Shown: positions 124-46,827 of the stretch, piece by piece | Layout of the letters: the number at the start of each line of letters is the position of its first letter | Position numbering within the stretch: the first letter of the stretch is position 1 | Virus record (IMG/VR): IMGVR_UViG_3300009168_000021 | Span: 1-47,327 of that record | DNA length: 47,327 bases | From: a virus | Reading direction: 5' to 3' (one strand) | Program-made: the position numbers and the translations under genes | The notes under the pieces: model-generated | The model's database searches: none | Seen by the model: the letters and a program-made list of their open reading frames with translations, nothing else | What the model was told of the DNA's origin: nothing

Positions 124-689
124 ACACCAAACTCGTTCCCGGCATTCAGTCTTTTGTCGTGGACAATCCGGCGGCAGCGGCCACTGTTGGTGGTATCGAC
201 CCGGTGGCCAACACTTGGTGGCGCAACCGCGCGTCTCTGGCGATCCCGTCTGCGGACGCGACGCTGCAAGGCGTGGTCACGGTGCTCCAGAAGGAGTTCC
301 GCCAGCTTCGTAAATATGGCGGCAACCCGAACCTTCTCCTGGCCGGTTCTGACTTCATGGAGTTCTTCGAGAAGGAGCTTCGCGCCAAGGGCAACTACAC
401 GCTGGAAGGTTGGGCCAAAGGCGGCATGATCGACGCGTCCATCGCGGACATCGCGTTCAAGGGCAAGCCGATCAAGTACGACCCGACGCTCGATGACCAG
501 GGCAAGAGCAAGTACCTGTACGTTCTCGACACCAAGCACATCTTCCCGATGGCCGTCGAAGGCGAGTCGATGCGTGATCATTCGCCGTCGCGTCCCTACG
601 ACAAGTACGTCTTTTATCGTGCCAAGACCTGGGTCGGTGGCTTGGTCACCGATCAACGCAACTGCCACGGCGTTTACTCCATCGCGTAA
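1..689 (+). CDS. Major capsid protein, C-terminal part (continues from 46856)
   Basis: This is the second part of the capsid gene that starts at 46856. Position 1 equals position 47205 and is the second base of a codon, so the joined gene is 1038 bp and encodes 345 aa. The protein resembles the HK97-fold major capsid proteins of podoviruses and temperate phages: an N-terminal DKPLLEAL segment, an FPGG loop, a DDPVTYSDP stretch, and a C-terminal part ending in a YVFYRAKTWVGGL segment typical of the family. It follows the scaffold gene at 45793 and precedes the head gene at 762, the usual late order. The assignment as capsid is strong from position and pattern; the exact family is from memory. 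Confidence 0.9.
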   Translation, partial: TTATHSEEVRLANLLEDKLEDMQEGTDRGMNTMFWDDGLPDTKLVPGIQSFVVDNPAAAATVGGIDPVANTWWRNRASLAIPSADATLQGVVTVLQKEFRQLRKYGGNPNLLLAGSDFMEFFEKELRAKGNYTLEGWAKGGMIDASIADIAFKGKPIKYDPTLDDQGKSKYLYVLDTKHIFPMAVEGESMRDHSPSRPYDKYVFYRAKTWVGGLVTDQRNCHGVYSIA

Positions 690-761
690 GCGCCGTCGCC
701 GCTCGATTGGCCCCTCCGGTCGAGCGGCACCCCGCTTCGCCCAAAATGAAAGGGTAAACCC

Positions 762-1628
762 ATGTCTTCGGCTTCAACCTCAACCGTCTTGACGGCAGCG
801 GTGCCGTTGGCGGGCACGTTCAACGCGCCATATCCCGCTGGGATGGCGGGCGCGTTGTTCGCCAACGCGGTCAACCACAAAATGTATGCGATGGGGTCGG
901 AATACTCCTCGCCCAAGGATTTCACGCTGGCGTTCGGCGCATCGAACATCACCGTGACGTGGAACGGCCAGACGACGTTGCCGCTCGGTGAAAGCGTTCG
1001 TCTCGGTCTGGATATTCTCGGTGCCGACGTTGACGACGACGTGCCGCTTAACAGACAGATCGTCAGAGCACCGATTGTCGGGATCTACTTTGGTGCGCCT
1101 TTGGCGGCGGCGGCCAACTCCATCGCACTGACTCAGTCGGTGGCGGCTGGCGCGGCGGCGCTTCTCAACGGCGCGCGAGGGGCTAACCTTGACGTTCCTC
1201 GCAACATCGTGGCGGCGTGGACCGGCACGGCAGTCGCAACAATCCGGGGCTATGACGTAGACGGTCAACTTGTTTCGGAGCTGTCGGCGTCTGGCGTGGC
1301 GCATACCGGCAAGAAGGCGTTCGCGTCGATCACCGAGATACGTTTCCAGAACGCGATCACCGCGCTGACCATCGGTCACGGTCTTCAACTCGGTATGCCG
1401 TGCCGGATCTCGCACGCTTCGCAGATCATCTACGAAGTGAAAAACGGCGTGGTCGCAGCACCTACCGGCACCACGACACTCGGCATCACGACCGCATCGA
1501 CAGGTACGTCTGGCGACGTGCGCGGCACCTATGCGCCGCTGACCCCGCCCGATGGTCTTACAGCTTACTCACTGGTTGCTGTCTCCAACGCCCCCGACGA
1601 TAGAGGCATCAATCAATATTTCGCGTGA
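762..1628 (+). CDS. Virion protein, possible head decoration protein
   Basis: The 288-aa product is rich in Ala, Gly, Thr and Val and has long beta-type stretches, with no signal peptide or membrane segment. It lies directly after the major capsid gene, with a Shine-Dalgarno-like AAAGGG before the ATG. Phages of this type often carry a capsid-associated or decoration protein here, so that is my inference; I see no motif that proves it. A strong terminator follows directly (1639-1662), so the capsid gene and this one form a transcription subunit. It could instead be a head-completion protein. Confidence 0.6.
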   Translation: MSSASTSTVLTAAVPLAGTFNAPYPAGMAGALFANAVNHKMYAMGSEYSSPKDFTLAFGASNITVTWNGQTTLPLGESVRLGLDILGADVDDDVPLNRQIVRAPIVGIYFGAPLAAAANSIALTQSVAAGAAALLNGARGANLDVPRNIVAAWTGTAVATIRGYDVDGQLVSELSASGVAHTGKKAFASITEIRFQNAITALTIGHGLQLGMPCRISHASQIIYEVKNGVVAAPTGTTTLGITTASTGTSGDVRGTYAPLTPPDGLTAYSLVAVSNAPDDRGINQYFA

Positions 1629-1638
1629 GTGAAGGAGG

Positions 1639-1662
1639 CGGGGACGCAAGTCCCCGTCTTTT
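1639..1662 (+). terminator. Intrinsic terminator after capsid and decoration genes
   Basis: A perfect 7-bp stem (CGGGGAC at 1639-1645, GTCCCCG at 1650-1656) closes a GCAA tetraloop and is followed by TCTTTT. It sits 10 bp after the stop of the gene ending at 1628 and before the Shine-Dalgarno of the next gene. It probably lowers expression of genes downstream of the abundant capsid proteins. Its T-rich tail also contains the genome-wide motif GTCTTTT. Confidence 0.85.
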
Positions 1663-1677
1663 AACCAGGAGGCCGCC

Positions 1678-3126: not shown

Positions 3127-5217
3127 GTGGCATACGTTGCCATTGCCGATTTCAAATACGGGATGGATCGCAGGCGTCCGCGCATAGCGGGCGTCTCTGG
3201 AACGCTTTACACACTCAAAAACGCGCATATTTCGCGGGGTGGCGACATCGAGCGCGCCAAGAAATTCGCGCTTAAATATTCACTTCCCAGCGGCACCCAC
3301 GGGTTGGCGCGTAATCGTCAGCAGCTCTACGTCTTTGGGTCTGCGGATCTCGCCGCGCTGATGCCGCTTGGTGTTCTGTACCAGCGGCTGCAATCCGTTG
3401 GTGGCAGTTCTACGATGACCCGTGTGCTGGACGTTCGCACGTTCAGCGGCAAGCTCTACGTCGTGGCGGAATATAACGACGGCCAGCTCTGTCATTTTTA
3501 CGATGGCGTGCGCGTCACCGATTGGGACACGATCAGCGCAGCCAACTCCAGCATAGTGACGACAGCGGAATATCTGGCGACGCTGATCAACAGCTCGCCG
3601 GTCGTGAAGGCGCAAAGCTCCGGCAACGTGATCTTGGTTGAGTCGCGTTTTCCTGGCTCACCGATCACCGTCACGACAGCGGCCCTCAATGGTGGGACGG
3701 TAAACGATCAGACGCTGACCAGCGTCGTTGTGCAGCCCAACGTCGTGGCTGCGAACGAGGTTCGCGCCACCGGCACCATCGTGATAACCGGCGGCACGTT
3801 TGACCCAGTTAACAACGCGGTCAAAGAGGTTCAGGTCACCGGCACATCGGGAAGCCTTATTGGTCCGGAGGCCGTGCATTGGCGCACGTCTAACGATGCA
3901 ACAGCGGTTGCGGTGGCTGCGGCCATCGTCAACCACACGGGATCGCACGGCTACACGGCTTTTGCCGTTAGTAACGTGGTGACAGTCCAGGCCCCGCCAG
4001 GGCAGGGACCGGCCGCGAACGGGCGTTTGCTGACCACGGCACTCTCGGGCGATGTCACCACCAGCACGACCAATTTCGCGGGCGGCGTGAACCAGACAAC
4101 CGCCGTGGCCCAGGTCAACAAGCTGACGTTGGGCGGCACCTACGAGGCGATGGATTTTTACCAAGTCAACGTCAACGGCTTGGTCTACACCGCGCGAGGC
4201 GCGGCGTCTGGCACGGGCGTGTCGGCGTTCACTTACAAGCAACGCATGTGGAGCGTCGCCGGTACGCTGTTTATGGGATCGAAGCTCAACGCCCCGGCGG
4301 ATTGGCACGACACGGCGGCGGCAACTGGCTTCGTGCAGATCGACGCCACCAACGAATCCGAAGGAAGCGAAAGACTTGTCTGCGTCGGGCAGTATTCCAA
4401 CTACGCGGTGGTGTTCGGCAGATCTCAGATCCGTCTTTATACGATCTCGACCGACGCCCAGGAGATCAGTTTTTATCAGTCGCTCGACAACACCGGCACG
4501 TTCGCCGCGAGAAGCGTTCTCAGCTACGGCAACAACGACGTGTTTTATCTGGACCCGACCGGCATCAGAAGCATTCGCGCGAGAGACGTGCTGAACGCGG
4601 CCTATGTCAATGACGTGGGCACCGCCATCGATCCTTTTGTACATGCACATCTTCGGGATTTGGCTATCGACACCATTACGCGAGCTGTGTCGGTCGTCGA
4701 GCCGGTGGACGGACGCTACTGGCTGGCCGTGGACAACAGGATTTACGTTCTGAGCTACTTCCCCAGCTCCAAGGTCACGGCGTGGTCTTTTTACGAACTG
4801 CCGTATCGCATCGAGGATTTCGTGCGCGACAGCGCAAGGCTCTATGTGAGGGGCAACAACGACAAGATCTATCTCTACGGCGGCGACAGCGGCGAGGAAT
4901 ATCCGGACGCTGGCGAACAGCCTGTGCAGGTCGAGCTACCATTTTTGTCGGCAGACAGCCCCGCCACCCAGAAGATGTTCACCGGGATGGATGTCGGCTT
5001 GGTCAACGAATGGCTGGTGAAGCTCTTGCCAGACCCCAACAACGAATCAATCATGCAGACCATCGGACGGCTGCATAAAAACTCGTTTCACGAGCCGCAC
5101 ATTCCGGTGTCGGCAAGAACCTCGCATTTTGCGTTGAATATAGAGTGCTCGAAAGCGGGTTTTGCGAGCTTGTCGGGCATCCTGATACATTTCCAGGGAG
5201 GCGAGGAAGATCGTTAA
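3127..5217 (+). CDS. Tail nozzle / stabilisation-type tail protein
   Basis: The 696-aa product starts with GTG; an ATG two bases earlier is out of frame. The N-terminus (ADFKYGMDRRRPRI, GTLYTLKNAHISRGGDIERAKKF) matches the start of podovirus tail nozzle proteins of the P22 gp10 / T7 gp12 type, which form the tail tip below the adaptor. The middle (about residues 170-330) is a Thr/Val/Ala-rich beta region that looks like an inserted Ig-like or carbohydrate-binding part, and the C-terminal half returns to beta-propeller-like strands. The stop TAA is followed at once by the ATG of the next gene. Confidence 0.7.
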   Translation: MAYVAIADFKYGMDRRRPRIAGVSGTLYTLKNAHISRGGDIERAKKFALKYSLPSGTHGLARNRQQLYVFGSADLAALMPLGVLYQRLQSVGGSSTMTRVLDVRTFSGKLYVVAEYNDGQLCHFYDGVRVTDWDTISAANSSIVTTAEYLATLINSSPVVKAQSSGNVILVESRFPGSPITVTTAALNGGTVNDQTLTSVVVQPNVVAANEVRATGTIVITGGTFDPVNNAVKEVQVTGTSGSLIGPEAVHWRTSNDATAVAVAAAIVNHTGSHGYTAFAVSNVVTVQAPPGQGPAANGRLLTTALSGDVTTSTTNFAGGVNQTTAVAQVNKLTLGGTYEAMDFYQVNVNGLVYTARGAASGTGVSAFTYKQRMWSVAGTLFMGSKLNAPADWHDTAAATGFVQIDATNESEGSERLVCVGQYSNYAVVFGRSQIRLYTISTDAQEISFYQSLDNTGTFAARSVLSYGNNDVFYLDPTGIRSIRARDVLNAAYVNDVGTAIDPFVHAHLRDLAIDTITRAVSVVEPVDGRYWLAVDNRIYVLSYFPSSKVTAWSFYELPYRIEDFVRDSARLYVRGNNDKIYLYGGDSGEEYPDAGEQPVQVELPFLSADSPATQKMFTGMDVGLVNEWLVKLLPDPNNESIMQTIGRLHKNSFHEPHIPVSARTSHFALNIECSKAGFASLSGILIHFQGGEEDR

Positions 5218-5736
5218 ATGCTCACCTTCCAGGCGGCCGACATGGCGGCTATCCACGCGGTCTTTTCGGACTTGTCCGAGGTTTCGGCCGAGGAAGTCAT
5301 AAAAGACTGTGGAAGCTGGTGGAAAGCCCTCCCGAAGGTCTTGAAACTGCTCGCTTTACCCGACTCCCAGACCGAGGCCCTGGTGGACGAATCGGGTACG
5401 GCGCTGGCGCTGTTTGGGCACTACCCCTCAGAAACCCCCAGAATCCGCACCACCTGGTTCGTCTTTTCCAACGGCTTTATAGCCAGGAAAGCGATGGCGG
5501 TGCTGGCGTGCTGGAAGCGGGTCGATGAGCTTCGGCTGGCCTACCCGGAGACGGAGTTTCACAGCTACACGACTTCCCGGCACTCGCAACGCGCCCGCTG
5601 GTTTTCACTCCTGGGCTTTCACTTTGTCGGGCTGACCAGCGACGGCGCGCAGCACTATGTCCTTCAGGAATCGGACAAAACGAGTGACTTGGAGTCTGTC
5701 GAGCAGTATAACCCTACAAATCCGCGAGCGTCATAA
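5218..5736 (+). CDS. gp13-like internal virion protein (GNAT-like fold)
   Basis: The 172-aa product resembles T7 gp13-type internal virion proteins, which have a GNAT acetyltransferase-like fold and are needed for virion morphogenesis. Visible features are the central VDESGTALALFGHYP strand region, the hydrophobic TTWFVFSNGFIARKAM segment and the HSQRARWFSLLGFHFVG motif near residues 120-140, typical of the C-terminal half of that fold. The start abuts the previous stop (TAAATG). It heads the block of ejection proteins, as in T7-like tails. Catalytic activity is not implied. Confidence 0.65.
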   Translation: MLTFQAADMAAIHAVFSDLSEVSAEEVIKDCGSWWKALPKVLKLLALPDSQTEALVDESGTALALFGHYPSETPRIRTTWFVFSNGFIARKAMAVLACWKRVDELRLAYPETEFHSYTTSRHSQRARWFSLLGFHFVGLTSDGAQHYVLQESDKTSDLESVEQYNPTNPRAS

Positions 5737-5780: not shown

Positions 5781-6419
5781 ATGTGCTTCAACAGCGGCGA
5801 CAAGGCGGCCCGAGAAGCCCGTAACGACGCGGCTATCGCCAAGGCAGAACAACGCGCCGAAGAAGAAGCCCGCCAAGGTCGCATCACGACCGGCCAAGCC
5901 AATATCGACAAGGCGTTCGAGCAATTCTCGCCTGACTATTACAAGAAATTCCAGGACACCAGCGTCGCGGCCAACTCGCCCCAGGTCGAGGATCAATATG
6001 CTCGCGCCAAAGACAAAGCCGCAGCGATCTTAGCTGGCAGAGGCGTTCTCAAATCCACCATTGCGGCGAACGCGCTTGGCGACGTGGAAAAGACCCGCGC
6101 CACCACGCTGGGGCAGATCGCAAACGACGCGGTCACGCAAGCGAACAATCTTCGCGCCGCTGTCGAGAAACAAAAGACCGATCTCTACACGTTGAACACC
6201 GCTGCCGGAGATCCCGCCGCGCTGGGCGCGCGGGCCATCGGTGAAGCGACTGCGCTGGTGGCGCAGCCGACAACGTCACAGCTCGGAGACATCTTCGCCA
6301 GCACGATTGGCTCGCTCGGCACGGCCGCAAAAGCAGATGCGTACTCGCCATACGGTGGACGCGTCGCAAACTGGTTCAGCTCGCCGCCGCTTCGCGGGTC
6401 GGACAAGGTTTATAGTTAG
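5781..6419 (+). CDS. Internal virion protein, paralogue 1
   Basis: The 212-aa product begins MCFNSGDKAAR and is highly helical and Ala-rich. A central segment, FSPDYYKKFQDT followed by a VEDQYARAKDKAAAIL helix and a GRGVLKST turn, is repeated in the next gene, and both end with a GDIFAS/GDIFGG motif before a Tyr-containing tail. This makes it one of two tandem paralogues. Short Met-Cys N-termini also occur in the protein at 7219. The role as ejected internal protein is inferred from position after the gp13-like gene and from composition. Confidence 0.6.
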   Translation: MCFNSGDKAAREARNDAAIAKAEQRAEEEARQGRITTGQANIDKAFEQFSPDYYKKFQDTSVAANSPQVEDQYARAKDKAAAILAGRGVLKSTIAANALGDVEKTRATTLGQIANDAVTQANNLRAAVEKQKTDLYTLNTAAGDPAALGARAIGEATALVAQPTTSQLGDIFASTIGSLGTAAKADAYSPYGGRVANWFSSPPLRGSDKVYS

Positions 6420-6430: not shown

Positions 6431-7216
6431 ATGAGCTGGTTCAGCAGCGTATTCAACGACCTCGTTGGCAACAAACAAGGCCCGGTCTACAGCACGGGTG
6501 CGCTTGATCAGGCGGCTATCGACCAAGCCGCTATCGATGCGGCGGCGCAGACGCCAGCCCCGGTGACGCCGACACCAGTGACGCCGACGCCAGCCCCGGT
6601 GACACCGACGCCAGCTCCAGTGACGCCCGTGTCCACGTTCGACCCGACGCCGTTTCGGAGTTCGGTCGATTCCAGTTTCAGCCAGTTCACGCCGGAGTTC
6701 TACGCTAAGAAATTCCAGGACACGTTCAATCCGTGGAAGACCGGCGTCGATAACCAATACAATCTCGCGCGAGACGCGCTGACCGCTGGTGTCGCCAAAA
6801 AAGGGCTTTCCAATTCCAGCCAGGGGCAGGGTCTTTTTCAGCAGCTCGATGCGCTGCGTGATCAAGCCTACAACACCGGGCAAAGCGCGGCGCAGGGCTT
6901 TCAGTCCACGCTTACGAGCGACATACAAAAAGCAAAAGACGATCTTTACGGCAGCATCGGTGAAGGCAAAGACAACGCGGGTGTCGGTGGCAGAGCCGCC
7001 ACGGCGGCCAGCGGGCTTGCTGGCAGGACCGGCTCTGCCGGTACGCTGGGAGATATTTTTGGCGGGCTGGTTTCGCCGTATGCGAACGCGAACAATCCTG
7101 GCGGGCCGGTCAATCCAGACGTTCAGGCGTTCGCGACCGGCGGTAGCCTTAACTTGGCGAATCCCAGCGGCGGCCCGTCCACCAAGGTCGTTGGCGCTAC
7201 CAAGAAGAAGTTCTAG
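6431..7216 (+). CDS. Internal virion protein, paralogue 2 with PVTPTP repeats
   Basis: The 261-aa product starts after an AGGAGG site. Residues about 40-65 are a low-complexity repeat built from APVTP and TPVTP units, a likely flexible linker. The following part (FTPEFYAKKFQDT, VDNQYNLARDAL, KKGLSNSS, GTLGDIFGGLVSPYA) aligns by eye with the previous gene, showing tandem duplication. The C-terminal tail is Gly/Asn-rich with a basic end (KKKF). It probably belongs to the internal virion or ejection set; no enzyme motif is seen. Confidence 0.6.
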   Translation: MSWFSSVFNDLVGNKQGPVYSTGALDQAAIDQAAIDAAAQTPAPVTPTPVTPTPAPVTPTPAPVTPVSTFDPTPFRSSVDSSFSQFTPEFYAKKFQDTFNPWKTGVDNQYNLARDALTAGVAKKGLSNSSQGQGLFQQLDALRDQAYNTGQSAAQGFQSTLTSDIQKAKDDLYGSIGEGKDNAGVGGRAATAASGLAGRTGSAGTLGDIFGGLVSPYANANNPGGPVNPDVQAFATGGSLNLANPSGGPSTKVVGATKKKF

Positions 7217-7950: not shown

Positions 7951-9561
7951 ATGCCCACGATCATCAACCCGTATAAGTCCGGCTCGACGATGGGCGAGGA
8001 TATCTTTGGGCTTGGCGGTCTGGCCGATACGTTCTTTGGACCGAAGGCCACGACGGCGGCATATACGCGCGAGAAATTCAACGAGGCGCGGCGGATCAAC
8101 GAGAACGTGCCGCTATACGCTGCTGCGGCAGCCGCTAACACCGATCCGCGCGAGATCGTAAGACGCGGTATCCTGGCGGATCAGCGTGGTGCGGACATGG
8201 GAAATGTCATTCGCACCATTACCGCAAATACCAACCCGAACGATTTGTCTGGCAATCGTGTAACGGCGGCGCTTATCGGCGCTGGCGGCCCGATGAGTGC
8301 GACACCGCAGGGCACTACCAACGAACTCGCAAATCGCCAGACCATCGCTCAGATGCAGATCGACAAGACGCTGGCTGCACAAGAAGCGCAGGACGCACGT
8401 TCGCTGGTCGCTGTGCGAGATCAATACGGGAATCTTACTTGGACGCGGAAATCAGACGCGCCAGGGCAAGGCGCTCCGATAACCGCCGATCAGGCGCGCG
8501 GCGATGCGCTCTCGCGATATCTGTTTCCGCAAATGGGTGGAGCTGACGGAGCGGCGGTGTTCCCCGATCCTGGCGCACCGCAGACGCTGCCAGACGCGAC
8601 ACTTACTCCTCTCACCACGTTGCCGGGGCTTGGTTCGATTCCGGCGGCTATGCCGCCGCCGATGACGGCTCCGCGAGCGCCGCTCAATCCGCAGCAACTG
8701 AAGGCGCTTAACGCGCTGCCGACCGATCACGTTCAGAATTGGGTCTTGCTTGACGACACCGGCACCAAGGTCATCCGCAGGGGCCGCACCGCTGGCAACA
8801 ACATCGACGTTGATACAAACCAACCGATGCCGGTTGGCTCACAGGTTATCTCGCCGCTTACGGCGCAGGGCGTCGCTGGCCTCACGACACCGGCGGCTCC
8901 GGGAAAGACCGAACTAAAAGACTATCGTTCCGCGATTAACAACGCTGACTCGGTGCTTAATCTCGGCACCAAGATCAACGACATTGTTGATCGCAACCCG
9001 ACTGCTATTGGCGCAGTCGGCAACCTTCGTCTTTTGGGTCAGGAAGGCGTTGATCTTCTCAATTCGCTCAACACGCAGTTTGGCGGCGGTCGAGCTGGCG
9101 GCTACGACACCGCCGTCGCGCAGACGCGGAACGAAATTAGACAGCGGCTTGGTGCCGGAGCGGCGCAGCTCATACCGGAGCTGTTCGACTCTGAGCTGAA
9201 CAGCGTCCGCACCATGAACGGCATGATGATCTACAAAGCCGCTGCGGCGCTGGGCCAAAGCGGCCGTGACGCGTCCGACAAAGACATCGCCATCGTCAGA
9301 GGTTTGGTTGGCGACCCGTCGTCGTGGTTCCAGGGACCGAACACTTACAAAGACAAGATCAACACCATCATGAGAATCGTCGCGGAACAGCGCGACAGCG
9401 ATTTCACGATGATCCAGCCGGGTGCGGTCATTGGGGCGCGCACGCAAGGCCCTGGCCTCACGCCTGCACCAGCCGCCACGACCACACCGCCAGCCGCCAC
9501 GGCGGCCCCCGTTATCGGCGGCACGACACAGACCGGCAGGACATGGAAGCTGGAGCCTTAA
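7951..9561 (+). CDS. Large virion-associated protein, possible ejection protein
   Basis: The 536-aa product has no membrane segment and no recognised catalytic motif. The N-terminal part is helical; about residues 200-255 are proline-rich (PDPGAPQTLPDATLTPLTTLPG), probably a linker; residues 310-490 form a helical domain (AINNADSVLNLGTKINDIVDR onward); and the C-terminal 40 residues are a Pro/Ala/Thr tail. Similar 'internal virion' proteins lie between gp13-like and the largest ejection gene in related phages. Four bases separate it from the next gene, indicating one transcript. Confidence 0.55.
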   Translation: MPTIINPYKSGSTMGEDIFGLGGLADTFFGPKATTAAYTREKFNEARRINENVPLYAAAAAANTDPREIVRRGILADQRGADMGNVIRTITANTNPNDLSGNRVTAALIGAGGPMSATPQGTTNELANRQTIAQMQIDKTLAAQEAQDARSLVAVRDQYGNLTWTRKSDAPGQGAPITADQARGDALSRYLFPQMGGADGAAVFPDPGAPQTLPDATLTPLTTLPGLGSIPAAMPPPMTAPRAPLNPQQLKALNALPTDHVQNWVLLDDTGTKVIRRGRTAGNNIDVDTNQPMPVGSQVISPLTAQGVAGLTTPAAPGKTELKDYRSAINNADSVLNLGTKINDIVDRNPTAIGAVGNLRLLGQEGVDLLNSLNTQFGGGRAGGYDTAVAQTRNEIRQRLGAGAAQLIPELFDSELNSVRTMNGMMIYKAAAALGQSGRDASDKDIAIVRGLVGDPSSWFQGPNTYKDKINTIMRIVAEQRDSDFTMIQPGAVIGARTQGPGLTPAPAATTTPPAATAAPVIGGTTQTGRTWKLEP

Positions 9562-14497: not shown

Positions 14498-14531
14498 CCT
14501 AGTTAAAAGACAACCATATAAACACATATAA

Positions 14532-14583
14532 ATTGTGAGTTCTCACAATCGTTGTTGACGTGTCCATACAATGAGATTATCCC
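14532..14583 (+). promoter_or_regulatory. Repressor operator and promoter region
   Basis: A perfect inverted repeat lies at 14532-14549: ATTGTGAG, two bases, CTCACAAT. Directly downstream is TTGACG (14555-14560), a good -35 element, with TATCCC (14578-14583) at 17-bp spacing as a weak -10. The promoter points at the XRE repressor gene at 14636. The same half-site occurs at four other promoters. AT-rich TATAAA repeats at 14517-14532 could also serve a leftward or extended promoter. Confidence 0.65.
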
Positions 14584-14635
14584 GTTAATTATGAGAGCGG
14601 ACGCCCAACAAACTCAACACTCGAAGGAGAACGGA

Positions 14636-15091
14636 ATGCCTAAGACCCCAACAGTGGGGCGTCTTAGCCCGCGTAACGATGACGAACCTGATGCAGTCGC
14701 GCACAAGGACGTTATCAAGCGGGAGTTTGGTCAACGGCTGCGACGCTTGCTAGTTTCAAAGGGAATGTCCCAGACTGAACTAGCTAAGGCGGCGGCAAGA
14801 CACACACCGGACAAGCAATTCGGGCGTGACTTAATCTCCAGCTACATCAACGGGCGATACGTCCCTAATCCCATCAACTTGGAAGCCTTAGCGCGAGCGT
14901 TAGACGTTCGTGCCGAAGAACTACTGCCACAGGCGAACAGCCTGCCGCGACGCGGCGAGGCAACCCCGCCGTTCGACATACGCGTGCTTGGTGACAATCG
15001 CGCCTCGTTGCGTGTCAACCAAGTCGTGTCGTTGAGTGTCGCGTTGAAAGTCGCTCAACTGATCAATGACGACACCAAGAACGGCATTTAG
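14636..15091 (+). CDS. XRE-family helix-turn-helix repressor
   Basis: I choose the ATG at 14636 because GAAGGAG lies about 7 nt upstream; an in-frame ATG at 14552 lies inside the promoter and lacks such a site. The 151-aa protein has an HTH_3 domain at about residues 30-95 (FGQRLRRLLVSKGMSQTELAKAA, then DLISSYINGRYVPNP and LEALARALDV). The C-terminal part (PFDIRVLGDNRASLRVNQVVSLSVALKV) is short, with no LexA/CI-type peptidase, so induction is unlikely to be by RecA-stimulated self-cleavage. It is the probable lysogeny repressor, and the palindromic operator at 14532-14549 suggests autoregulation. Confidence 0.85.
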   Translation: MPKTPTVGRLSPRNDDEPDAVAHKDVIKREFGQRLRRLLVSKGMSQTELAKAAARHTPDKQFGRDLISSYINGRYVPNPINLEALARALDVRAEELLPQANSLPRRGEATPPFDIRVLGDNRASLRVNQVVSLSVALKVAQLINDDTKNGI

Positions 15092-35293: not shown

Positions 35294-35502
35294 GCTTGCC
35301 TGTTCGGGGCAGAAACCGGGGGACGGCCCTTGAACATGCCTTGTCTTTTTAGGTCTGCTTTGTCTGCTAAGTCTTTGATCTTATTCATAAAAGACCGACC
35401 CGGCCTATGGCCGACCCCCGCCCCCTGGCACCCCCCGCGACGCGCGAGCAGCGATTGGCCAACCCCCCGGCGCTAAATTTTCAAATTTGGCAAAAGTAGC
35501 CA

Positions 35503-36728: not shown

Positions 36729-38729
36729 ATGCCGCAGCCGACCCCGTACAACAGAATCACGAATTTTCAGAACGATCAGGCGCTTCATCCGACTGATCCG
36801 TATCCCGCGCCGAAGGTCGATCAAGAATACAACGCGATCAAGATCACGACCGACGAGATCCTGCAAAATCTTGCGCTGATCCAGCGTGACGACGGCGAAC
36901 TCGCCAACGATAGTGTTGGCCAGGATCAGTTGCGGGACGATGTCTATGTTGGCTTCGGCAAGCCGGAGCCGTGGATGCCGAACCACGATTATGTCGGCTC
37001 GAACACCGTCTTTCATCTGAATGCTTATTACTATTGTCAGGTCACGCACACGTCTTCGACTGATTTCAACGCGGATTTCGCGTTGGGCTACTGGCTGGTG
37101 ATCGTTGACTTTGAAGACGTTCACTTTGACGCGGACATCGAAGCGATTGGCGCGCTGACCGGAACAGGTTTTTCGTATCGCGTCTCCGATGGCGTCTGGA
37201 AGACCAAGCTGATCCAGGGCAGTCCGCTTGTTCCGGAGTCGTCTATCGATGTTCAGGACAACACCGATCCGTTGAACAACGTCGCGGTCAAGCTGGTCAA
37301 CGATGCGCAAGCGCCCGGTGCGAGCAAAGTCTACGGCACCAACGGCGCTGGCGTTAAGGGCTGGAAAGCGGACCCGCTGCCGCCAGCAACCGGCGTCACG
37401 CCGGGGAGCTACACCAGCACCAATTTGACGGTGCAGGCAGACGGAAGAATCACCGCAGCGGCCAACGGCACTTCGGTCGCGACCACGGTGGCTGGTGATT
37501 CACCGCCGGTTGGCGTTCCGCCAGGGACGATGTGGTACGAGAGCGACACCGGCGGTTTGTATATCAGCTACAACGACGGCACGTCGGTGCAGTGGGTGCA
37601 GATCAACGGGCCGGTCCCGGCGGGTGCCATCGGCGTGACAGACGCGTCGATGCGCGCGTTCGCCGCGCCGCTCGATGCGCTGGCGTATTCAGGGATGCAG
37701 ATCAACGGCGGCATGAGCGTCAACCAGGAAGGTTTGGCCTCGCGCGCCGACAATGGCTACATCTGCGACGGCTGGCAGTTGGCTGTTAGCGTGAGCGGCG
37801 CGGTGGTGTCATCGGGTGCGGCGGCTAACGCTGGCCCCCCGCTTTTTGGCGGCGGGCACACGCACTACGCTTACGTTGTGACCGCCACGGCGAAGCCGGT
37901 GCTGGCGGCTGGCGATGTCTGTTCGTTGAACCAGATCTTCGAGGGCTTCCGGGTGGCGCGGCTCGGTTGGGGAACGCCGGAAGCGCAGCCGATCACGATT
38001 GGGTTCTGGAGCTTGAACACGGTTGCCGGTATCTACAACGGCAGCATCCGCAACAACGGGGCTTCGCGTTCATATGTCTTCACATATAACCAGGCCGTTG
38101 GCGGCGTTCCCGAGTATCACACTGTCACCATCCCTGGTGACACCGCTGGCGTTTGGCTGAAAGACCAGAACGCGGGCATCATCCTGTCGTTCGCGGTGGC
38201 GAGCGGATCTGATTTCACCACGACTCCCGGTGATCTGTGGGTCGCCGGAAACTTTGTCGCGAGGCCGCTCCACATCAATGTCCTGGCGGCGAACGGCAAC
38301 GCGATCCGCATCACGGGCGTTGTCGTCGTCCCCGGCAGCAACGCCCCGGCAGCGGCGCAGTCGGCGCTGATCGTGCGGCCGTATGATGACGAGCTGCTGA
38401 CGTGTCAGCGATACTTGCAACGGATCAGCAGTTCGGCAGCGCAATCGATCTATGGGTCTGGCGTCGTCTTTTCTGCAACGACGTTGCTGCTCGGGATTCC
38501 ATTTCTGGTGCCAATGCGAATAGCTCCAACTTTTACGACGGCGGCAGCGGCGAATTTTCATGCGGTGCAAGGCGGGGGACTTGTGTCGGTGAGTTCGCTG
38601 GTGGCGGAAGTGACCACGCAATTCATGGCGTCCATCAACTGCACGATAGCCGCTGGCAATGCCGGTCAGGCTGGTGTGCTGCGTTCCGCCAACGCGAATA
38701 GTTGGATGCAAATGAACGCGAGGATCTGA
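36729..38729 (+). CDS. Tail fibre or tailspike protein
   Basis: The 666-aa product has an N-terminal part typical of podovirus fibre proteins (YNRITNFQNDQALHPTDPYP, DQEYNAIKITTDEILQNLALIQRDDGELAN), a repetitive Thr/Gly/Val middle, a GTMWYESDTGGLYISYNDGTS motif, and a C-terminal receptor-type domain beginning ALAYSGMQINGGMSVNQEG. That last domain is shared with the next gene. The N-terminus likely docks on the tail and the C-terminus contacts the host. Confidence 0.75.
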   Translation: MPQPTPYNRITNFQNDQALHPTDPYPAPKVDQEYNAIKITTDEILQNLALIQRDDGELANDSVGQDQLRDDVYVGFGKPEPWMPNHDYVGSNTVFHLNAYYYCQVTHTSSTDFNADFALGYWLVIVDFEDVHFDADIEAIGALTGTGFSYRVSDGVWKTKLIQGSPLVPESSIDVQDNTDPLNNVAVKLVNDAQAPGASKVYGTNGAGVKGWKADPLPPATGVTPGSYTSTNLTVQADGRITAAANGTSVATTVAGDSPPVGVPPGTMWYESDTGGLYISYNDGTSVQWVQINGPVPAGAIGVTDASMRAFAAPLDALAYSGMQINGGMSVNQEGLASRADNGYICDGWQLAVSVSGAVVSSGAAANAGPPLFGGGHTHYAYVVTATAKPVLAAGDVCSLNQIFEGFRVARLGWGTPEAQPITIGFWSLNTVAGIYNGSIRNNGASRSYVFTYNQAVGGVPEYHTVTIPGDTAGVWLKDQNAGIILSFAVASGSDFTTTPGDLWVAGNFVARPLHINVLAANGNAIRITGVVVVPGSNAPAAAQSALIVRPYDDELLTCQRYLQRISSSAAQSIYGSGVVFSATTLLLGIPFLVPMRIAPTFTTAAAANFHAVQGGGLVSVSSLVAEVTTQFMASINCTIAAGNAGQAGVLRSANANSWMQMNARI

Positions 38730-40422: not shown

Positions 40423-41871
40423 GTGGCCTTGAATTTCCCGAGTAGCCCGACTGTCGGCCAAGTCTACGATATGTATTCGTGGGACGGCGAAAAGTGGGTG
40501 CCGCTTCCGTCTGCAAGCGGTGGTGGCGGGATTTCGGAAGCACCAACAGACGGCGGTCTTTATGGCCGCAAGGCTGCGGCGTGGGCGCGTGGTGTTGCGG
40601 TTGCTGGCGACACGATGTCCGGCGATCTCGGGATCAGCAAAGTCGATGCTCAGATTTCGTTGGATAAGACCTCGGGCGGTAGCTGGCTCACCGGCAGACG
40701 CAACGGTATCACGCGTTGGACGTTGCAGTTGGGCAATGGCGAGACAGAGTCGGGGAGCAACGCCGGGTCTAATTTCGATCTGTCGAGCTGGAACGATGCC
40801 GGTACAAATCTTGCCTCTCCGATTCGTATCTCGCGGGCAACCAGCCAAGTAACGCTCAGTGCTGGCTTGGTGACCGGCGCTGACTTGAATGTGATCCGCG
40901 CTGGCGCACCCACGACCGGGGCGGTTCTGTTTGGCAATCTCACCAACAAATATCTCTATTACGACGGCGCTAATTTCGCGTTGACGGGTGGTCATCTGTT
41001 CATGACCAGCCAGATCAACCTCAACAACGCCGGGGCTACGCTTACGTTCGGCGGTGCTGCGTCCGCTGGCATCTACAATGATTCCAGCAACATCGCGATC
41101 CGTGCGCCAGCGACCAACGGCGCGGTCTATTTCCAAGACCTGAACTCTGCCCACACTTACGGTCTTTTCAACGCGGGCGGTTTAAGTATCACCGGGGAAT
41201 TAGGTGTTTCCAGCAACGGAAACTTTGGTGGCACCATCAACGTCAGCGGGGTCGGGGCGCAACCTCCAACCCTCACCTATAAAGACAACGTGGGCGGGCT
41301 GCGTGGCTACAGCACTTTTGACAGTGTTTCTACCGGCTCTTTTTTCCTTGGGATTCATCAAGCGTCTGGACAGCAGTTGTACATCCGGGGGGACGGCTAT
41401 CTCGTCCTGAATGCCGTAAACGCGGCGAAACCGGGCGGCGGCTCGTGGGCGGATTCGTCGGACGAGCGCATCAAGACCGTGGTCGGGGACTACGGCAGCG
41501 GTCTGGCTCAGATCAAGCAACTCCAGCCGATCCGCTACACGTTCAAGGGTAACGACACCAATCAAGCGCCGTCGAACGACGCGCTTGGCGCGCTGGCCAA
41601 GTCAGCGTCAAAAGACGCGCCGACTGTCCCGTATCCCAACTCTCCGCACTACGCGGACGCGGTTGCCGAGACGCAGTTCGTCGGGCTGATTGCACAGAAT
41701 ACCGAAGGCGCGATGCCGGAGTGCGTCAAGCAGATCGCTGGCTACATCGACGGCGCGGCAGTCACAGATCTTCGGATGCTCGACACCAGTCCCCTGGTCT
41801 TTGCACTGATCAACGCCGTGAAAGAACTTTCCGCGCGGGTCGAGCAGTTGGAGGCGGCGGCAACCCCGTGA
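40423..41871 (+). CDS. Tail fibre with C-terminal S74 intramolecular chaperone
   Basis: The 482-aa product starts with GTG. It has the short FPSSPTVGQVYDMYSWDGEKWV attachment motif, a long beta-rich shaft (residues 60-330) with Asn/Ser/Gly repeats, and a C-terminal Peptidase_S74 domain (SSDERIKTVVGDYGSGLAQIK, LQPIRYTFKGN, TQFVGLIAQN, ALINAVKELSARVEQLE). Such domains trimerise and fold the fibre and then cut themselves off. The cut would fall near the SSDER segment at about residue 345. Confidence 0.85.
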   Translation: MALNFPSSPTVGQVYDMYSWDGEKWVPLPSASGGGGISEAPTDGGLYGRKAAAWARGVAVAGDTMSGDLGISKVDAQISLDKTSGGSWLTGRRNGITRWTLQLGNGETESGSNAGSNFDLSSWNDAGTNLASPIRISRATSQVTLSAGLVTGADLNVIRAGAPTTGAVLFGNLTNKYLYYDGANFALTGGHLFMTSQINLNNAGATLTFGGAASAGIYNDSSNIAIRAPATNGAVYFQDLNSAHTYGLFNAGGLSITGELGVSSNGNFGGTINVSGVGAQPPTLTYKDNVGGLRGYSTFDSVSTGSFFLGIHQASGQQLYIRGDGYLVLNAVNAAKPGGGSWADSSDERIKTVVGDYGSGLAQIKQLQPIRYTFKGNDTNQAPSNDALGALAKSASKDAPTVPYPNSPHYADAVAETQFVGLIAQNTEGAMPECVKQIAGYIDGAAVTDLRMLDTSPLVFALINAVKELSARVEQLEAAATP

Positions 41872-43523
41872 ACAAGCCGCACACCAAAGACGACGCCAGT
41901 AAGCACGAGCTGCTGATCGCGGCACGCCGTCTGTTGGCGATAAAAGACTCCAAGAACCACCTGATCCAGTTCATGCGCTTGACGATGCCCGACCCCAACG
42001 CGATGGACGACGTGACAAAGTCTCTTTACACGATCACCCCCCAGGCAAGTCTGCTCTGTGAAATCTTGGAGAAAGTCGAGAAAGGCGATTTGAAGCGCGT
42101 CGCGGTTTCGATCTCCCCTCAGACCGGAAAAAGCCAAGTGCTGACAAGAGGCGGCCCTGCCTGGATCAGCGGTCGAGATCCGCGACGGCACATCATGGTC
42201 GGCGCGTACAATCAGGATTTCGCCAACGAGTTTGGCGACGACGTGCGGCAGCTCATCAACAGTAGCGGCTACAAACAGGTCTTCCCAAATTACGTTTTGG
42301 ACAAAGGCGGCGCGGCGAAAGACCTGCTCATCACGAAACAGCGGGGCAAGCTGGCGTTCGTGGGTGTCGGCGGTTCTGGCACCGGAAAGCCCGCAGACTT
42401 CTTCTTCGTTGACGATCCAATTCGTAACGACGAAGACGCCAACAGCGCGAGTTACCGTGACAAGATATGGAAATGGTTCAATCGTGTGGTCTTCACCAGA
42501 TGTCATGGCAAAACGCCCATCGTGGTAGTGCATACCCGTTGGCACGAAGACGATCTGATCGGAAGACTTTGTGATCCGGACCACCCGGCAAGAAAAAGAC
42601 CCGTCTCGGACGGGGGTTATGCGGGGATCGAAGCCAACTGGAAATATTTTAATATTCCTGCGGTGGTGACAGACCCGGACCTGGCGAAGGCGCTGAAGCT
42701 GGATCTTCACGTCCAGACCGATCCCATCGTGGTGCGCGAGTTTGGCGACAAGCCAATGGCGTCACTCTGGGAAGAGAAATTCCCGCTGAGTTTTCTTGCG
42801 GAGGCCAAGCATAATGACCCTGTTGGTTTTTCATCGCTGCGGATGGGAAAGCCCACCCCAGACGATGGCTCGTATTTCAGGGCTGAAGATATCGTCGAGT
42901 ACGATGTCAGCGAGCTACCAAGAAACCTCCGCAAATACGGCGCTTCAGACCATGCCGTGTCGCGCGCCCAGGGCCGCGACTACACGGTGCTGGGATGCGT
43001 GGGCATCGACGAAGACGATAATATTTGGGTCTTACCGGATCTGACCTGGGAACGCATGGAGACGGACCAAACCGTCGAGGAAATGCTGATCAAGTTCAAG
43101 CTGCACAAACCACTTTTATGGTGGATGGAAAGCGAACTCATATCGAAGTCTTTCGGGCCGTTCCTGTTCAAGCGGATGCACGAGGAACGGATCTACACGT
43201 CGGTGGACGCGGTCACCCCGTCAAAAGACAAATCGCTTCGTGCGAGGTCGATCCAGGGCCGGATGCGAATGCGTAAGGTTTATTTCCCCAAACGCGCGCC
43301 GTGGTGGCCCAATGCAAGAGCGCAGCTTTTGCGGTTTCCGGCCGGAGCGCATGACGATTTCGTCGATTGGATCTCCCATATCGGTATGGGGCTTGGCAAA
43401 GAAGTCGGCCCGGTGGTCCGCAAACCTAAAAAACCAGAGTTTGCGAGCGGCTCGATCCAATGGATCTTGCAGAACGCGCAGGCTCGCGCCCGCGACGGCG
43501 TTAAAAAGACGCGAGGCTGGTGA
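41868..43523 (+). CDS. terL: Large terminase subunit
   Basis: I choose the GTG at 41868, which overlaps the fibre stop (GTGA) and removes an unlikely upstream extension; this gives 551 aa. The ATPase domain has a Walker A-like SISPQTGKSQ (residues 81-90) and Walker B FFFVDDP (about 178-184). The RNase H-like nuclease has D361 (GASDHAVS), D371 (GRDYTVLG) and a HDDFVDW motif near the end. It packages DNA through the portal encoded next. The Walker A has Gln/Thr where Gly/Ser is usual, common in this terminase group. Confidence 0.92.
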   Translation: MNKPHTKDDASKHELLIAARRLLAIKDSKNHLIQFMRLTMPDPNAMDDVTKSLYTITPQASLLCEILEKVEKGDLKRVAVSISPQTGKSQVLTRGGPAWISGRDPRRHIMVGAYNQDFANEFGDDVRQLINSSGYKQVFPNYVLDKGGAAKDLLITKQRGKLAFVGVGGSGTGKPADFFFVDDPIRNDEDANSASYRDKIWKWFNRVVFTRCHGKTPIVVVHTRWHEDDLIGRLCDPDHPARKRPVSDGGYAGIEANWKYFNIPAVVTDPDLAKALKLDLHVQTDPIVVREFGDKPMASLWEEKFPLSFLAEAKHNDPVGFSSLRMGKPTPDDGSYFRAEDIVEYDVSELPRNLRKYGASDHAVSRAQGRDYTVLGCVGIDEDDNIWVLPDLTWERMETDQTVEEMLIKFKLHKPLLWWMESELISKSFGPFLFKRMHEERIYTSVDAVTPSKDKSLRARSIQGRMRMRKVYFPKRAPWWPNARAQLLRFPAGAHDDFVDWISHIGMGLGKEVGPVVRKPKKPEFASGSIQWILQNAQARARDGVKKTRGW

Positions 43524-45691
43524 TGACTGACGTGTATGGCGCAGACACGGGCGGCGCGATGACCGGCGCGGAAGCCCTTGGGATGCAAACCGAAACCAAG
43601 AAACCATCTTGGGACGACATGCCCGAGGTCGATGAACAGCGCGCCGAACTCATCAAGGAGTGGGAAGACAAGATCAAAGACGCCAAGAAATTCTGGAAAA
43701 AGTTCTACCAGCGCACGCGTGATTGCGAACAACTGGCGTTTGCTGGCGCGGACAAGGCGTGGATCGAGTCGGACTCATACACGGTCCCGGTGATCCCCCG
43801 GCATATCAATCAGTCGGTGGCGACGCTCTACGCGAAGGACCCCAAGGTCGCAGCGAAGCCGCGCAAAAAGCTCATGTACACGCTGTGGGACGGCACCACG
43901 GAGCAGCTCGAAGGCATCATTCAGAAGATCATGATGCAGCAGCAGATGGTGTCGATGGGCATGATGGCCCCTGGCCCCGATCCCAACGACATGGCGGTGC
44001 TGGAGGAGATCAAGCAAGTCTCGCAATACGAGCAGCAAGTGGAAAAGCTCGGCAAGACGCTTGAAATCCTCTGGGATTACTACACCAAGGAACAGGCGAC
44101 CAATTTCAAGTCGCAAATGAAGGCGCTGGTACGCCGCGCCAAGGTGGCTGGTGTCGCGTACTGCCAGCTCGGCTACCAGCGTATCCTCGAACCCAATCCA
44201 GACGTGTCTGCGAAGATCAGCGATATAACATCGAAGATCAAAAACATCGAAAGCACCCTCGACAAAGTCAACGACGGCGACGGTGCCAACAGCGCGTATG
44301 ACAGTGGCTACAGCGCAAAGGGCGAGCTGGAGCAGCTAAAGCTGAACCTGAAAGACCTACAGAATCAGGAAATGATCGTGATCCGGGAAGGGCCGATCTT
44401 CTCCTGGCCCAAGGTGCGCGACATCATTCTCGATCCCGACGTGACCCACGTTAAGACCCTGGAGGGGTGCGGCTGGTACGCGCGTGAATATCTGCTCACG
44501 CCAAAGCGTGTCTTTGAAGTGTACGGCGTCCGTATTGGCGAGCACTACACCAAGCGTTACCGGGTGGGCGACGATGGCAAGCCGCAAAAGAGAAAAGACG
44601 ATAAGTCGTGCGAGGTTTGCATCTACGAGATCTTCGACGAGCGAAATCGCCAGCAGCTCGTCATCGCGGAAGGCTATCCGGACTTTGTATCGGAGCCACA
44701 AGAGCCGTCCGTCAAGCTGGAGCGTTTTTGGAACCTGTTTCCGCTGGTTTTCAACGAAGTGGAATCGGAAGAAGAAAAATTCCCGCCCTCAGACGTTTGG
44801 CTGATGCGGCATCCGCAAAAAGACGTGAACCGCGCCCGCCAAGGTCTTCGCGAGCATCGCAATGCGAACCGGCCGAAGTACCTCGTGGGCATGGGGTCGC
44901 TGGAAGACGAGGACAAGCGCAAAATCGCGCAGGCCGAAGCCCACGCCATCCTGGAGATCGCCAACCTCCAGCCCGGTGAAGACATCGCCAAGAAGATCCA
45001 GAAGTTCGATCACACCGGCATCGACCCGAACCAGTATCAGGTCGAGGAGCATCACAAAGACATCCTCCGGTCTGTTGGGTCTTCCGAGGCGGCGATGGGC
45101 ACTCCCACAGGCGGCACCGCCACCGAGAACTCCATCGCGGAAAGCGCGCGAAGCGCGTCGCAGGCCGACAACGTCGATGAACTCGACGATTTCTTAGGTG
45201 AACTCGCCAAGAGCGTCGGGCACCTGATGATGCTCGAACTGGAAAAAGAGACTGTTGTCGAGATCGCTGGCCCCGGCGCGGTCTGGCCCGACACCCGCCC
45301 GACCCGCGAAATGATCGCAAAAGACCTGGAGCTGGAAATCGAGGCTGGCTCGTCTGGCAGACCGAATAAAGCGGCGGAACTTGCGAATCTGGAGCGCGCC
45401 GCGCCGTATGTGCTTCAAATCCCTGGCGTTTCGCCCAAGCCCCTCGCGAAGAAGTACGCGGATCTGCTCGATATCAGCATCGAGGATCTCTACAAGGCCG
45501 GAATGCCGTCGATTGCGGCGCAAAACCAGCCGCAAATCGGCCCGCCGCAAGCCGGTGGCCAAGGACAGGGCGGCGAGAAAGACCCCGGCGCGCAGGGCGC
45601 GAAGGGATCAGATAACACCGCCAAGCCAGGACCACAGCAACCTGGTCCTCAACCGGCGTACCCCGCTGGCGGTGGTGGCTTAATGCAATAA
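43523..45691 (+). CDS. Portal protein
   Basis: The ATG at 43523 overlaps the terminase stop (TGATG); a GTG one codon earlier is possible. The 722-aa product has the podovirus portal pattern: an early aromatic and charged region (DKIKDAKKFWKKFYQRTRDCEQLAF), a wing with a coiled coil (SDITSKIKNIESTLDKVNDGD), a WPKVRDIILDPDVTH segment, a helical clip/crown region and a Gly/Gln/Pro-rich C-terminal tail (from about residue 665). It forms the 12-mer DNA channel. Confidence 0.85.
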   Translation: MTDVYGADTGGAMTGAEALGMQTETKKPSWDDMPEVDEQRAELIKEWEDKIKDAKKFWKKFYQRTRDCEQLAFAGADKAWIESDSYTVPVIPRHINQSVATLYAKDPKVAAKPRKKLMYTLWDGTTEQLEGIIQKIMMQQQMVSMGMMAPGPDPNDMAVLEEIKQVSQYEQQVEKLGKTLEILWDYYTKEQATNFKSQMKALVRRAKVAGVAYCQLGYQRILEPNPDVSAKISDITSKIKNIESTLDKVNDGDGANSAYDSGYSAKGELEQLKLNLKDLQNQEMIVIREGPIFSWPKVRDIILDPDVTHVKTLEGCGWYAREYLLTPKRVFEVYGVRIGEHYTKRYRVGDDGKPQKRKDDKSCEVCIYEIFDERNRQQLVIAEGYPDFVSEPQEPSVKLERFWNLFPLVFNEVESEEEKFPPSDVWLMRHPQKDVNRARQGLREHRNANRPKYLVGMGSLEDEDKRKIAQAEAHAILEIANLQPGEDIAKKIQKFDHTGIDPNQYQVEEHHKDILRSVGSSEAAMGTPTGGTATENSIAESARSASQADNVDELDDFLGELAKSVGHLMMLELEKETVVEIAGPGAVWPDTRPTREMIAKDLELEIEAGSSGRPNKAAELANLERAAPYVLQIPGVSPKPLAKKYADLLDISIEDLYKAGMPSIAAQNQPQIGPPQAGGQGQGGEKDPGAQGAKGSDNTAKPGPQQPGPQPAYPAGGGGLMQ

Positions 45692-45711
45692 GACGCAAAA
45701 AGACCGAATCC

Positions 45712-45746
45712 TTGACGTTCGCGTCTGCGTCTGTGAGAAGTGTGAG
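45712..45746 (+). promoter_or_regulatory. Possible internal promoter before the scaffold gene
   Basis: The 101-bp gap after the portal gene contains TTGACG (45712-45717) as a -35-like element with no clear -10, and two direct TGTGAG copies (45732-45737 and 45741-45746) resembling the repressor half-site. It could raise transcription of the scaffold and capsid genes. The evidence is weak. Confidence 0.35.
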
Positions 45747-45792
45747 CTTATTCGCCCGACACGCTAACAGCATCGGGCATAGGGAGACGTAA

Positions 45793-46827
45793 ATGGCAGA
45801 TTCGGATTCGTCACCCGAATCAATAACTACAAGTCCGGTCGATGGCTCTGCCCAGACCGCAGCACCCGACGTAACGACTACGCCTGCTGAGTCGTCGCCA
45901 GCGGAAACCAAGGATACCGGCGAACCGAAGTCGATGGTGGAGGCGGTTCATTCCGCTTTGCAGCCAAAAGACGCGGACGAGGAATCGCCAGCCTCACCAC
46001 AAGATCCCGACCCATCCAAAGTCGATCCCTTAAAGACCAAGGAACAGACAGCATCCGATGAGCTGAGCGAAGCTGAACGCTCGCAGCTCAAAGGCCGGAC
46101 TAAAAAGAGTTTCGAGCGTCTGACATCCCGTGTTGGTGAGCTGAGTCAGCAGAACGAGTCTTTGCAGACCCAGGTCAACGAGTACCACAAGGTCGTGGAC
46201 TACATTCGGGCCACCAAGCTGAAGCCCGAGGAAATCGACACGGTTTTCGACATCGCGACCACGATGAAATCAGGCAATCCGCACGAAGCGTTGCGGAAAC
46301 TGGTTCCGATAGTCCAGGAGCTTCAAAAGCAGGCTGGCGTTGAGCTGCCCGACGACCTGACCGATCAGGTTCGGAACGGCTACCTCACCGAACAGCACGC
46401 TCGCGAGCTGGCTATGGCCCGAAGCGAAGCGGCGCACGCACGAGCGCGGGAGCAACACTCCGCGCAAGAGCGAGCGCAGGCCGACACCCAGGCCAGATTC
46501 CGAAGTCATATGACATCGTTGGTGAACACCGCCGACGAATGGGAACGGCAGAAGGCGGGAAGTGATCTCGATTGGAGCCGGAAGTCCGCTCGCGTTCACG
46601 AACTAGCCAAGCTGGAAGTTTTGCAGAACGGCCCCCCAGCGTCCCAACAGCAAGCAGTCGAAATGTTCAATCGCATTTACGACCGCGTGACGACGGACCT
46701 GAAGGCTTTGATGCCACGACCAGCTCCGGTGCGAGGCTTGAATGGCAGCGCGTCTTCCCCCCGCAGCGTAGCAGAACCGAAATCCATGCTGGAAGCGATC
46801 CGGATGGGCATCAGGAGTTCGACGTAG
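45793..46827 (+). CDS. Scaffolding protein
   Basis: The 344-aa product is acidic and low in complexity at its N-terminus (residues 1-85, Ser/Thr/Asp/Pro-rich), then a long helical, coiled-coil-rich middle (RTKKSFERLTSRVGELSQQNESLQTQ) and a C-terminal part rich in Ala, Arg and Gln ending SMLEAIRMGI. This make-up and the place between portal and major capsid genes are typical of scaffolding proteins. It has a GGGAGACG-type ribosome site. Confidence 0.8.
   Translation: MADSDSSPESITTSPVDGSAQTAAPDVTTTPAESSPAETKDTGEPKSMVEAVHSALQPKDADEESPASPQDPDPSKVDPLKTKEQTASDELSEAERSQLKGRTKKSFERLTSRVGELSQQNESLQTQVNEYHKVVDYIRATKLKPEEIDTVFDIATTMKSGNPHEALRKLVPIVQELQKQAGVELPDDLTDQVRNGYLTEQHARELAMARSEAAHARAREQHSAQERAQADTQARFRSHMTSLVNTADEWERQKAGSDLDWSRKSARVHELAKLEVLQNGPPASQQQAVEMFNRIYDRVTTDLKALMPRPAPVRGLNGSASSPRSVAEPKSMLEAIRMGIRSST

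Follow-up and report, generated by a model that had tools for sequence, protein, structure and literature searches.

Abundance of AAAAGAC in the window

The DNA analysed here is the IMG/VR virus record IMGVR_UViG_3300009168_000021, and the window, i.e. the whole stretch of 47,327 nucleotides, comprises the entire record. A 123-bp direct terminal repeat at positions 1-123 and 47205-47327 shows that the assembly is circular and complete, with a length of about 47,204 bp. The subject of this analysis is the heptamer AAAAGAC (complement GTCTTTT), which occurs 54 times in the window, 33 times on the plus strand and 21 times on the minus strand. This corresponds to approximately one copy per 0.85 kb when both strands are counted, and to one per 1.4-2.3 kb on each strand. 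The initial annotation had arrived at about 54 copies, and all 25 of the coordinates it listed are exact. Scans of the window for tRNAs and Rfam families were empty.

Exact matches on the plus strand lie at 2118-2124, 5301-5307, 6088-6094, 6172-6178, 6934-6940, 8916-8922, 9641-9647, 11397-11403, 11781-11787, 12596-12602, 17512-17518, 20624-20630, 20762-20768, 27115-27121, 28373-28379, 28733-28739, 29295-29301, 29924-29930, 34108-34114, 41610-41616, 41942-41948, 42594-42600, 43223-43229, 43504-43510, 44593-44599, 44818-44824, 45319-45325 and 45966-45972, and in intergenic DNA at 14505-14511, 16591-16597, 18473-18479 (intergenic in the gene set used), 35389-35395 and 45698-45704. Those on the minus strand lie at 149-155, 609-615, 4785-4791, 5260-5266, 5461-5467, 6831-6837, 9029-9035, 20993-20999, 21518-21524, 24035-24041, 24344-24350, 26758-26764, 33917-33923, 34355-34361, 38466-38472 and 41162-41168, and in intergenic DNA at 1656-1662, 16694-16700, 18173-18179 and 18831-18837 (the last two again according to the gene set used) and 35343-35349.

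The enrichment is real in this phage and strong by every null model. Dinucleotide shuffling (n = 100) gives an expectation of 5.4 ± 2.3 copies, with a largest value of 11. Markov models of order 1, 2, 3 and 4, fitted with the motif copies masked, predict 4.4, 5.9, 7.8 and 7.9 copies, respectively; when fitted to the unmasked sequence they predict 4.8, 7.3, 12.1 and 23.7, values that are inflated by the AAAAGAC copies themselves. In the coding DNA, which holds 44 copies, a synonymous-codon shuffle (n = 500) yields a mean of 5.7 and a maximum of 14, and the 7,158 bp of intergenic DNA contain 10 copies where 0.9 are expected. Both the Markov models and the codon shuffle thus stay far below 40 copies, and a compositional or Markov origin of the excess is ruled out. 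The coding copies occupy all three frames in both orientations, with a single copy in frame 0 sense, and the density is similar in intergenic (1.4 per kb) and coding DNA (1.1 per kb). The earlier view that the copies are spread over all frames, both orientations and intergenic DNA, and that Lys-Asp codons do not account for them, is therefore borne out; codon usage as a cause is ruled out by the codon shuffle together with the antisense copies. A limited survey of the open-access literature found no published report of an AAAAGAC motif.

The enrichment delimits one clade of phages

A megablast search of the phage collection returned no relative of the window. Relatives were gathered through the terminase (TerL). 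Two near-complete relatives share the enrichment, namely G005 (47.1 kb, 47 copies) and G027 (45.6 kb, apparently complete, 55 copies), as do five fragments (G023, G004, L014, L113 and L114). The TerL or portal proteins of these enriched relatives are about 80-85% identical to those of the window phage. AAAAGAC is the top 7-mer in all three whole genomes of the clade, with codon-shuffle z values of 13.4-13.8, and it ranks top or second in the longer clade records under an order-2 Markov model.

Relatives of 45-50 kb whose TerL is at most 61% identical contain 0-7 copies, and one such relative with a G+C content of 46% (G024) contains 16. Among the closest cultured phages by TerL comparison, Rhizobium phage RHph_N65 contains three copies and Microcystis phage Mae-Yong1326-1 two. 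The outgroups nevertheless keep synteny and encode homologous PolA, nuclease, single-stranded DNA-binding protein (SSB), integrase and PrimPol, which indicates that the enrichment arose, or was lost, inside one family. The comparison with related phages that the initial annotation had proposed thus separates near relatives, which are enriched, from distant ones that are not, despite their homologous proteins. We conclude that AAAAGAC enrichment delimits one small clade of related uncultured phages, a property described here for the first time. A search for the host through close prophages gave best hits at only 51-56% TerL identity, in genomes of Hyphomicrobiales, including Chelatococcus; judged from these sequence matches, prophages of the wider family sit in this order.

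Shape and distribution of the word

In the pooled clade (176 kb) there are 183 copies of AAAAGAC against 26 expected. Variants at the first position are also over-represented, although less so (T 4.9-fold, C 2.5-fold and G 2.1-fold), as is AACAGAC (2.2-fold), whereas ATAAGAC, AATAGAC and variants at positions 4-7 do not exceed about 1.3-fold. The mild enrichment of CAAAGAC, GAAAGAC and TAAAGAC defines the core as NAAAGAC, with A strongly preferred at the first position. The initial annotation had put these three variants at about 5-11 copies each in the window, which is right for TAAAGAC (11) and too low for CAAAGAC (26) and GAAAGAC (18). It had also noted that the next base is mostly G; this is the case at 29 of the 54 sites, but the proportion is near the background of 45% G after AGAC, and the motif is accordingly 7 bp long, not 8. 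Beyond these seven bases neither the 54 window sites nor a set of 182 sites shows a flanking consensus, only weak base preferences, and we found no palindrome or flank extension. A longer or paired motif was rejected, as there is no flank consensus and no favoured spacing between pairs.

The spacing of the copies is random, with a coefficient of variation of 1.04 and 21 gaps shorter than 100 bp against 17.8 expected. Over codon-shuffled genes in four records, the excess is 5.3-8.0-fold in the sense and 7.0-13.1-fold in the antisense direction, and these comparable values indicate no orientation bias within genes. A packaging signal, as had been suggested, does not fit copies that are randomly spaced and orientation-neutral. 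By region, the density is 1.7 per kb in the window-specific genes (16.3-19.9 kb) and 1.4 per kb in the conserved structural genes, and it is lower in the variable tail region (0.8 per kb). AAAAGAC is a short asymmetric motif at the DNA level that is not linked to particular genes.

Could the copies be the tails of intrinsic terminators, with a hairpin followed by GTCTTTT? A few intergenic copies have this appearance. The copy at 1656-1662 reads GTCTTTT on the plus strand after a terminator-like GGGGAC/GTCCCC hairpin, and a comparable hairpin with GTCTTTT adjoins the equivalent of the neighbouring gene in G027; the complement of the copy at 35389-35395 likewise follows a hairpin, and these and some further G027 sites come after G+C-rich hairpins. 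As a general account the terminator idea fails, because a strong upstream hairpin is present at only 16% of 156 sites, compared to 7% in the background, and because most sites lie inside genes in both orientations. We regard it as scarcely credible for the motif as a whole.

Turnover of the sites

In aligned DNA of well-covered clade pairs with about 75% nucleotide identity, 35-50% of the AAAAGAC sites are shared. For words of the same composition this proportion is 15-23% (24-36% in pairs with G023), and for all 7-mers in aligned clade DNA it is 14-22%. Fixed ancestral sites as the sole cause of the enrichment were rejected, given that no more than 35-50% of sites are shared at this identity. 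The density is instead maintained through turnover: most sites differ between genomes, while the counts stay at about 50 per genome. Stable counts despite changing sites are what selection for density predicts, and selection, rather than biased mutation, would keep the density of the word.

The opposite view, in which the motif has no function and reflects a context-dependent mutation or codon-context bias of the host or of the phage polymerase, is in our judgement unlikely. It can draw on the residues encoded under the sites, whose conservation matches that of their genes on average (0.68 vs. 0.65), so that copies gather where the protein tolerates them, and the enriched 7-mers of other lineages could equally be lineage-specific biases. 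A mutational bias would, on the other hand, have to be sharp over seven bases, with changes at positions 2 and 4-7 at, near or below expectation; it would have to leave AAAAGAC sites with about double the conservation of words of equal composition, and to act alike on sense, antisense and intergenic DNA.

Candidate readers of the word

Taken together, we consider it probable that the sites marked by the word are read by a DNA-handling protein of the phage itself. The word would tell a DNA-processing factor encoded by the phage where to act, throughout the genome and whatever the gene context or strand. Our first choice, to which we assign a probability of roughly 30%, is that the pRN1-type PrimPol of the phage reads it as a site for priming replication. 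In favour of priming, the phage has a full set of replication proteins of its own, with the PrimPol-ATPase, a family A DNA polymerase (19907-22063, minus strand), an Enc34/gp2.5-like SSB (23716-24300, minus strand) and an exonuclease. A DUF2800/PD-(D/E)XK RecB-like nuclease (24809-25966, minus strand) provides a recombination context.

The PrimPol gene (27814-29772, plus strand) encodes a pRN1 ORF904-like AEP and helix-bundle domain fused to an AAA_25 RecA-like ATPase (Pfam Prim-Pol 4.9e-29, AAA_25 3.9e-36), and its N-terminus matches the pRN1 primase by sequence profile. The predicted model shows an AEP core followed by helices at residues 203-279. Superposition of model residues 9-283 on the pRN1 primase (PDB-code: 9aam) gives a Z-score of 14.1 and a root-mean-square deviation (rmsd) of 8.7, which in the model reflects a different placement of the two domains; the catalytic part alone compares with pRN1 (PDB-code: 3m1m) at a Z-score of 13.8 and an rmsd of 3.5. 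The window PrimPol is thus predicted to have the pRN1-type architecture of an AEP catalytic domain and a helix-bundle template-recognition domain. The pRN1 primase has been shown to depend on a motif in the template, to which its helix-bundle domain binds (PMC8076596).

By analogy, the helix-bundle domain of the phage PrimPol may recognise GTCTTTT (or AAAAGAC) in exposed single-stranded DNA and the enzyme would start primers there. At its chance frequency a 7-mer would be too rare for lagging-strand priming, and the genome would have been selected to accumulate copies. Known primase sites (GTC for T7 gp4, GTG for the pRN1 PrimPol, TTTGGTTA/GTG for NrS-1) are likewise short asymmetric signals on both strands, and this phage, like pRN1, encodes a pRN1-type PrimPol, with AAAAGAC as its putative recognition word. 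Unlike AAAAGAC, they are either rare or only 3-5 nt long, and their own genomes show no strong excess of them. If priming at AAAAGAC holds, we know of no earlier case in which the recognition word of a primase has visibly moulded the genome as a whole.

Within the clade the catalytic part of the PrimPol is 46-57% identical, vs. 35-38% to outgroups, and the helix-bundle domain 59-60%, vs. 36-43%. In the ATPase part the two comparisons do not differ in this way (40-43% within the clade, 43-45% to outgroups). The gene is therefore mosaic, in that its AEP and helix-bundle regions group with the clade and its ATPase region does not, a pattern that suggests domain exchange.

Several observations weigh against priming. 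Clade coherence is also seen in most other core genes, which makes the correlation with the PrimPol weak. Fifteen relatives or prophage regions outside the clade carry a PrimPol gene (although PrimPol homology was not re-detected in every incomplete record) and reach maximal 7-mer z values of 5-7; the presence of a PrimPol alone was accordingly rejected as a predictor of a dominant 7-mer. The sites of T7 primase show no more than a mild excess in T7 itself (GGGTC, 94 vs. 57). Moreover, priming by pRN1 takes place on bases 5' of GTG, a geometry that GTCTTTT does not share. The 8-nt PrimPol site of NrS-1 occurs only twice in the NrS-1 genome, and the characterised PrimPol motifs are either short, such as GTG in pRN1, or not enriched (PMC7102993, PMC8718748).

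Possible, although doubtful, is a dispersed site for another DNA-binding protein of the phage, not the primase, with a nucleoid-like, silencing or packaging-related role. Three candidates can be named, for all of which DNA binding is predicted from sequence features. A small protein encoded at 22941-23252 (minus strand; alignment A4) appears by inspection to combine a CPHC-type ribbon with a winged-helix-like C-terminus, and the product of 25963-26466 (minus strand; alignment A7) has a putative AT-hook-like RRGRPP and a C-terminal part that matches phrog_408. Both were detected only in the enriched clade; the clade-only proteins A3, A4 and A7 recur in the same two genomes only, and among these phages there is no mosaic that would separate the candidates. 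The third is a Cro/CI-type helix-turn-helix repressor (14552-15091, plus strand; Pfam HTH_31 1.8e-8), which is 76% identical to its G027 copy and whose gene lies directly downstream of the AAAAGAC copy at 14505.

Many dispersed repressor sites are known in phages, such as the stoperators of Cluster A mycobacteriophages, which are longer and predominantly one-way relative to transcription (PMC6550527). The outgroups studied here also bear their own longer, mostly one-way repeats, e.g. TGTAGnGAACTGAGAGA. AAAAGAC resembles stoperators in forming tens of dispersed asymmetric sites in a temperate phage genome, but it is 7 bp long instead of about 13 bp, neutral in orientation and nearly as frequent in coding as in intergenic DNA. 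A Cluster A-type stoperator was rejected, since neither a one-way orientation nor a consensus of about 13 bp was found. An operator-type site would sit poorly with the weak intergenic preference and the lack of orientation bias after codon correction, and typical operators, unlike AAAAGAC, have a flank extension or palindrome. Operator or stoperator use is thus disfavoured because the copies sit in coding DNA without orientation.

The word could also act in the manner of Chi, halting degradation by an AddAB/RecBCD-type enzyme of the host, or by the RecB-like nuclease of the phage, and prompting recombination, with the two orientations protecting both ends. Chi, e.g. GCTGGTGG of E. coli, is likewise a short asymmetric word with a genome-wide excess, mostly in genes. 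Its reader is an enzyme of the host, and its copies favour the leading strand of the host chromosome. The 7-bp length, asymmetry, genome-wide spread and double orientation of AAAAGAC would suit a defence against end-degrading nucleases, and the DUF2800 nuclease and SSB of the phage are in keeping with it. Unlike Chi, AAAAGAC has no strand skew and is enriched in the phage clade; Chi-like function predicts enrichment in the host, and none of 289 sampled alphaproteobacterial genomes exceeds about 2.4-fold for AAAAGAC over the reversed control, although the host of the clade may fall outside this sample. We find a Chi-like function somewhat unlikely.

A recognition site for a DNA methyltransferase of phage or host is very unlikely; the initial annotation had suggested a target or protected site of the phage adenine methyltransferase. 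The window contains a methyltransferase-like open reading frame with an NPPY motif (17446-17991, minus strand), and a 65% identical homologue is found in G005. No homologue was detected in G027, with its apparently complete genome and 55 copies, and methylation alone does not explain why sites accumulate. The window enzyme was rejected as the cause on these grounds, so that an unrelated or host enzyme would have to be invoked.

Dominant words and repeats in other phages

In most other records the maximal codon-shuffle z of any 7-mer lies between 5 and 9 (8.3 in T7 and 7.0 in lambda). Some lineages unrelated to the clade likewise have a single dominant 7-mer in their coding DNA. In Microcystis phage Mae-Yong1326-1 (L248), GCTGTCC/CAGGACA is present 79 times against 16-20 expected, an excess of about 4-5-fold with z values of 12.9-15.1, above that of the window. 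By codon shuffle, GCGCAGC dominates in G019/G020 (z about 13), AACAGCC in G024 (z 10.9), CCTGGAC in Rhizobium phage P106B (L250; 28 copies vs. 4.0 expected, z 10.7) and CCGTCCC in G018 (17 copies vs. 1.3 expected, z 10.4). The window clade is thus a strong case of a recurrent and unexplained phenomenon, with different words in different lineages. One could speculate that this lineage has evolved its own address code, a selected 7-bp word at about one per kb on both strands that is read by the PrimPol, and that other lineages use other words for the same purpose; we think the odds are rather against so broad a scheme.

DNA uptake sequences and KOPS-type words show the same shortness and genome-wide excess, and are likewise kept by selection. 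They are features of bacterial chromosomes with known readers. Words whose readers are known (Chi, uptake sequences, KOPS) have exposed basic recombination and segregation machinery. AAAAGAC is a comparable word that is the property of a phage clade and is kept through turnover, for which we know of no such reader. It provides a specific sequence for asking where PrimPol phages start DNA strands and how a phage marks its own DNA.

A CobS-like ATPase at first seemed a promising common factor of phages with dominant 7-mers but was rejected, as two phages with CobS homologues, one of Staphylococcus and the other a cyanophage, reach z values of only 5.9 and 6.6. At 32535-34672 of the window, a DUF7192 gene adjoins a gene for a CobS-like AAA+ ATPase; the pair is present in the window clade and not in the nearest outgroups, and Rhizobium phage RHph_X2_24 has homologues of both.

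Every relative seems to possess a repeat of its own. The outgroups G007 (L085-L087), G026 (L091-L092) and L058 contain 8-11 copies of the long asymmetric repeat mentioned above; in G026 all copies but one point in the same direction, and the repeat resembles stoperator or start-associated sequences. There are 14 copies of a repeat centred on ACCAGACA in G030 (L082-L084) and 19 copies of TTTGTCGG in G010 (L088-L090). In G018 (L093-L094), L030 and L031, TGGGACGG is dispersed in coding DNA, with 13 copies in 23 kb. G024 (L095-L097) has palindrome-like AACAGTCTGTT sites, and ACAGTCTG occurs there in 20 copies over 44 kb in both orientations.

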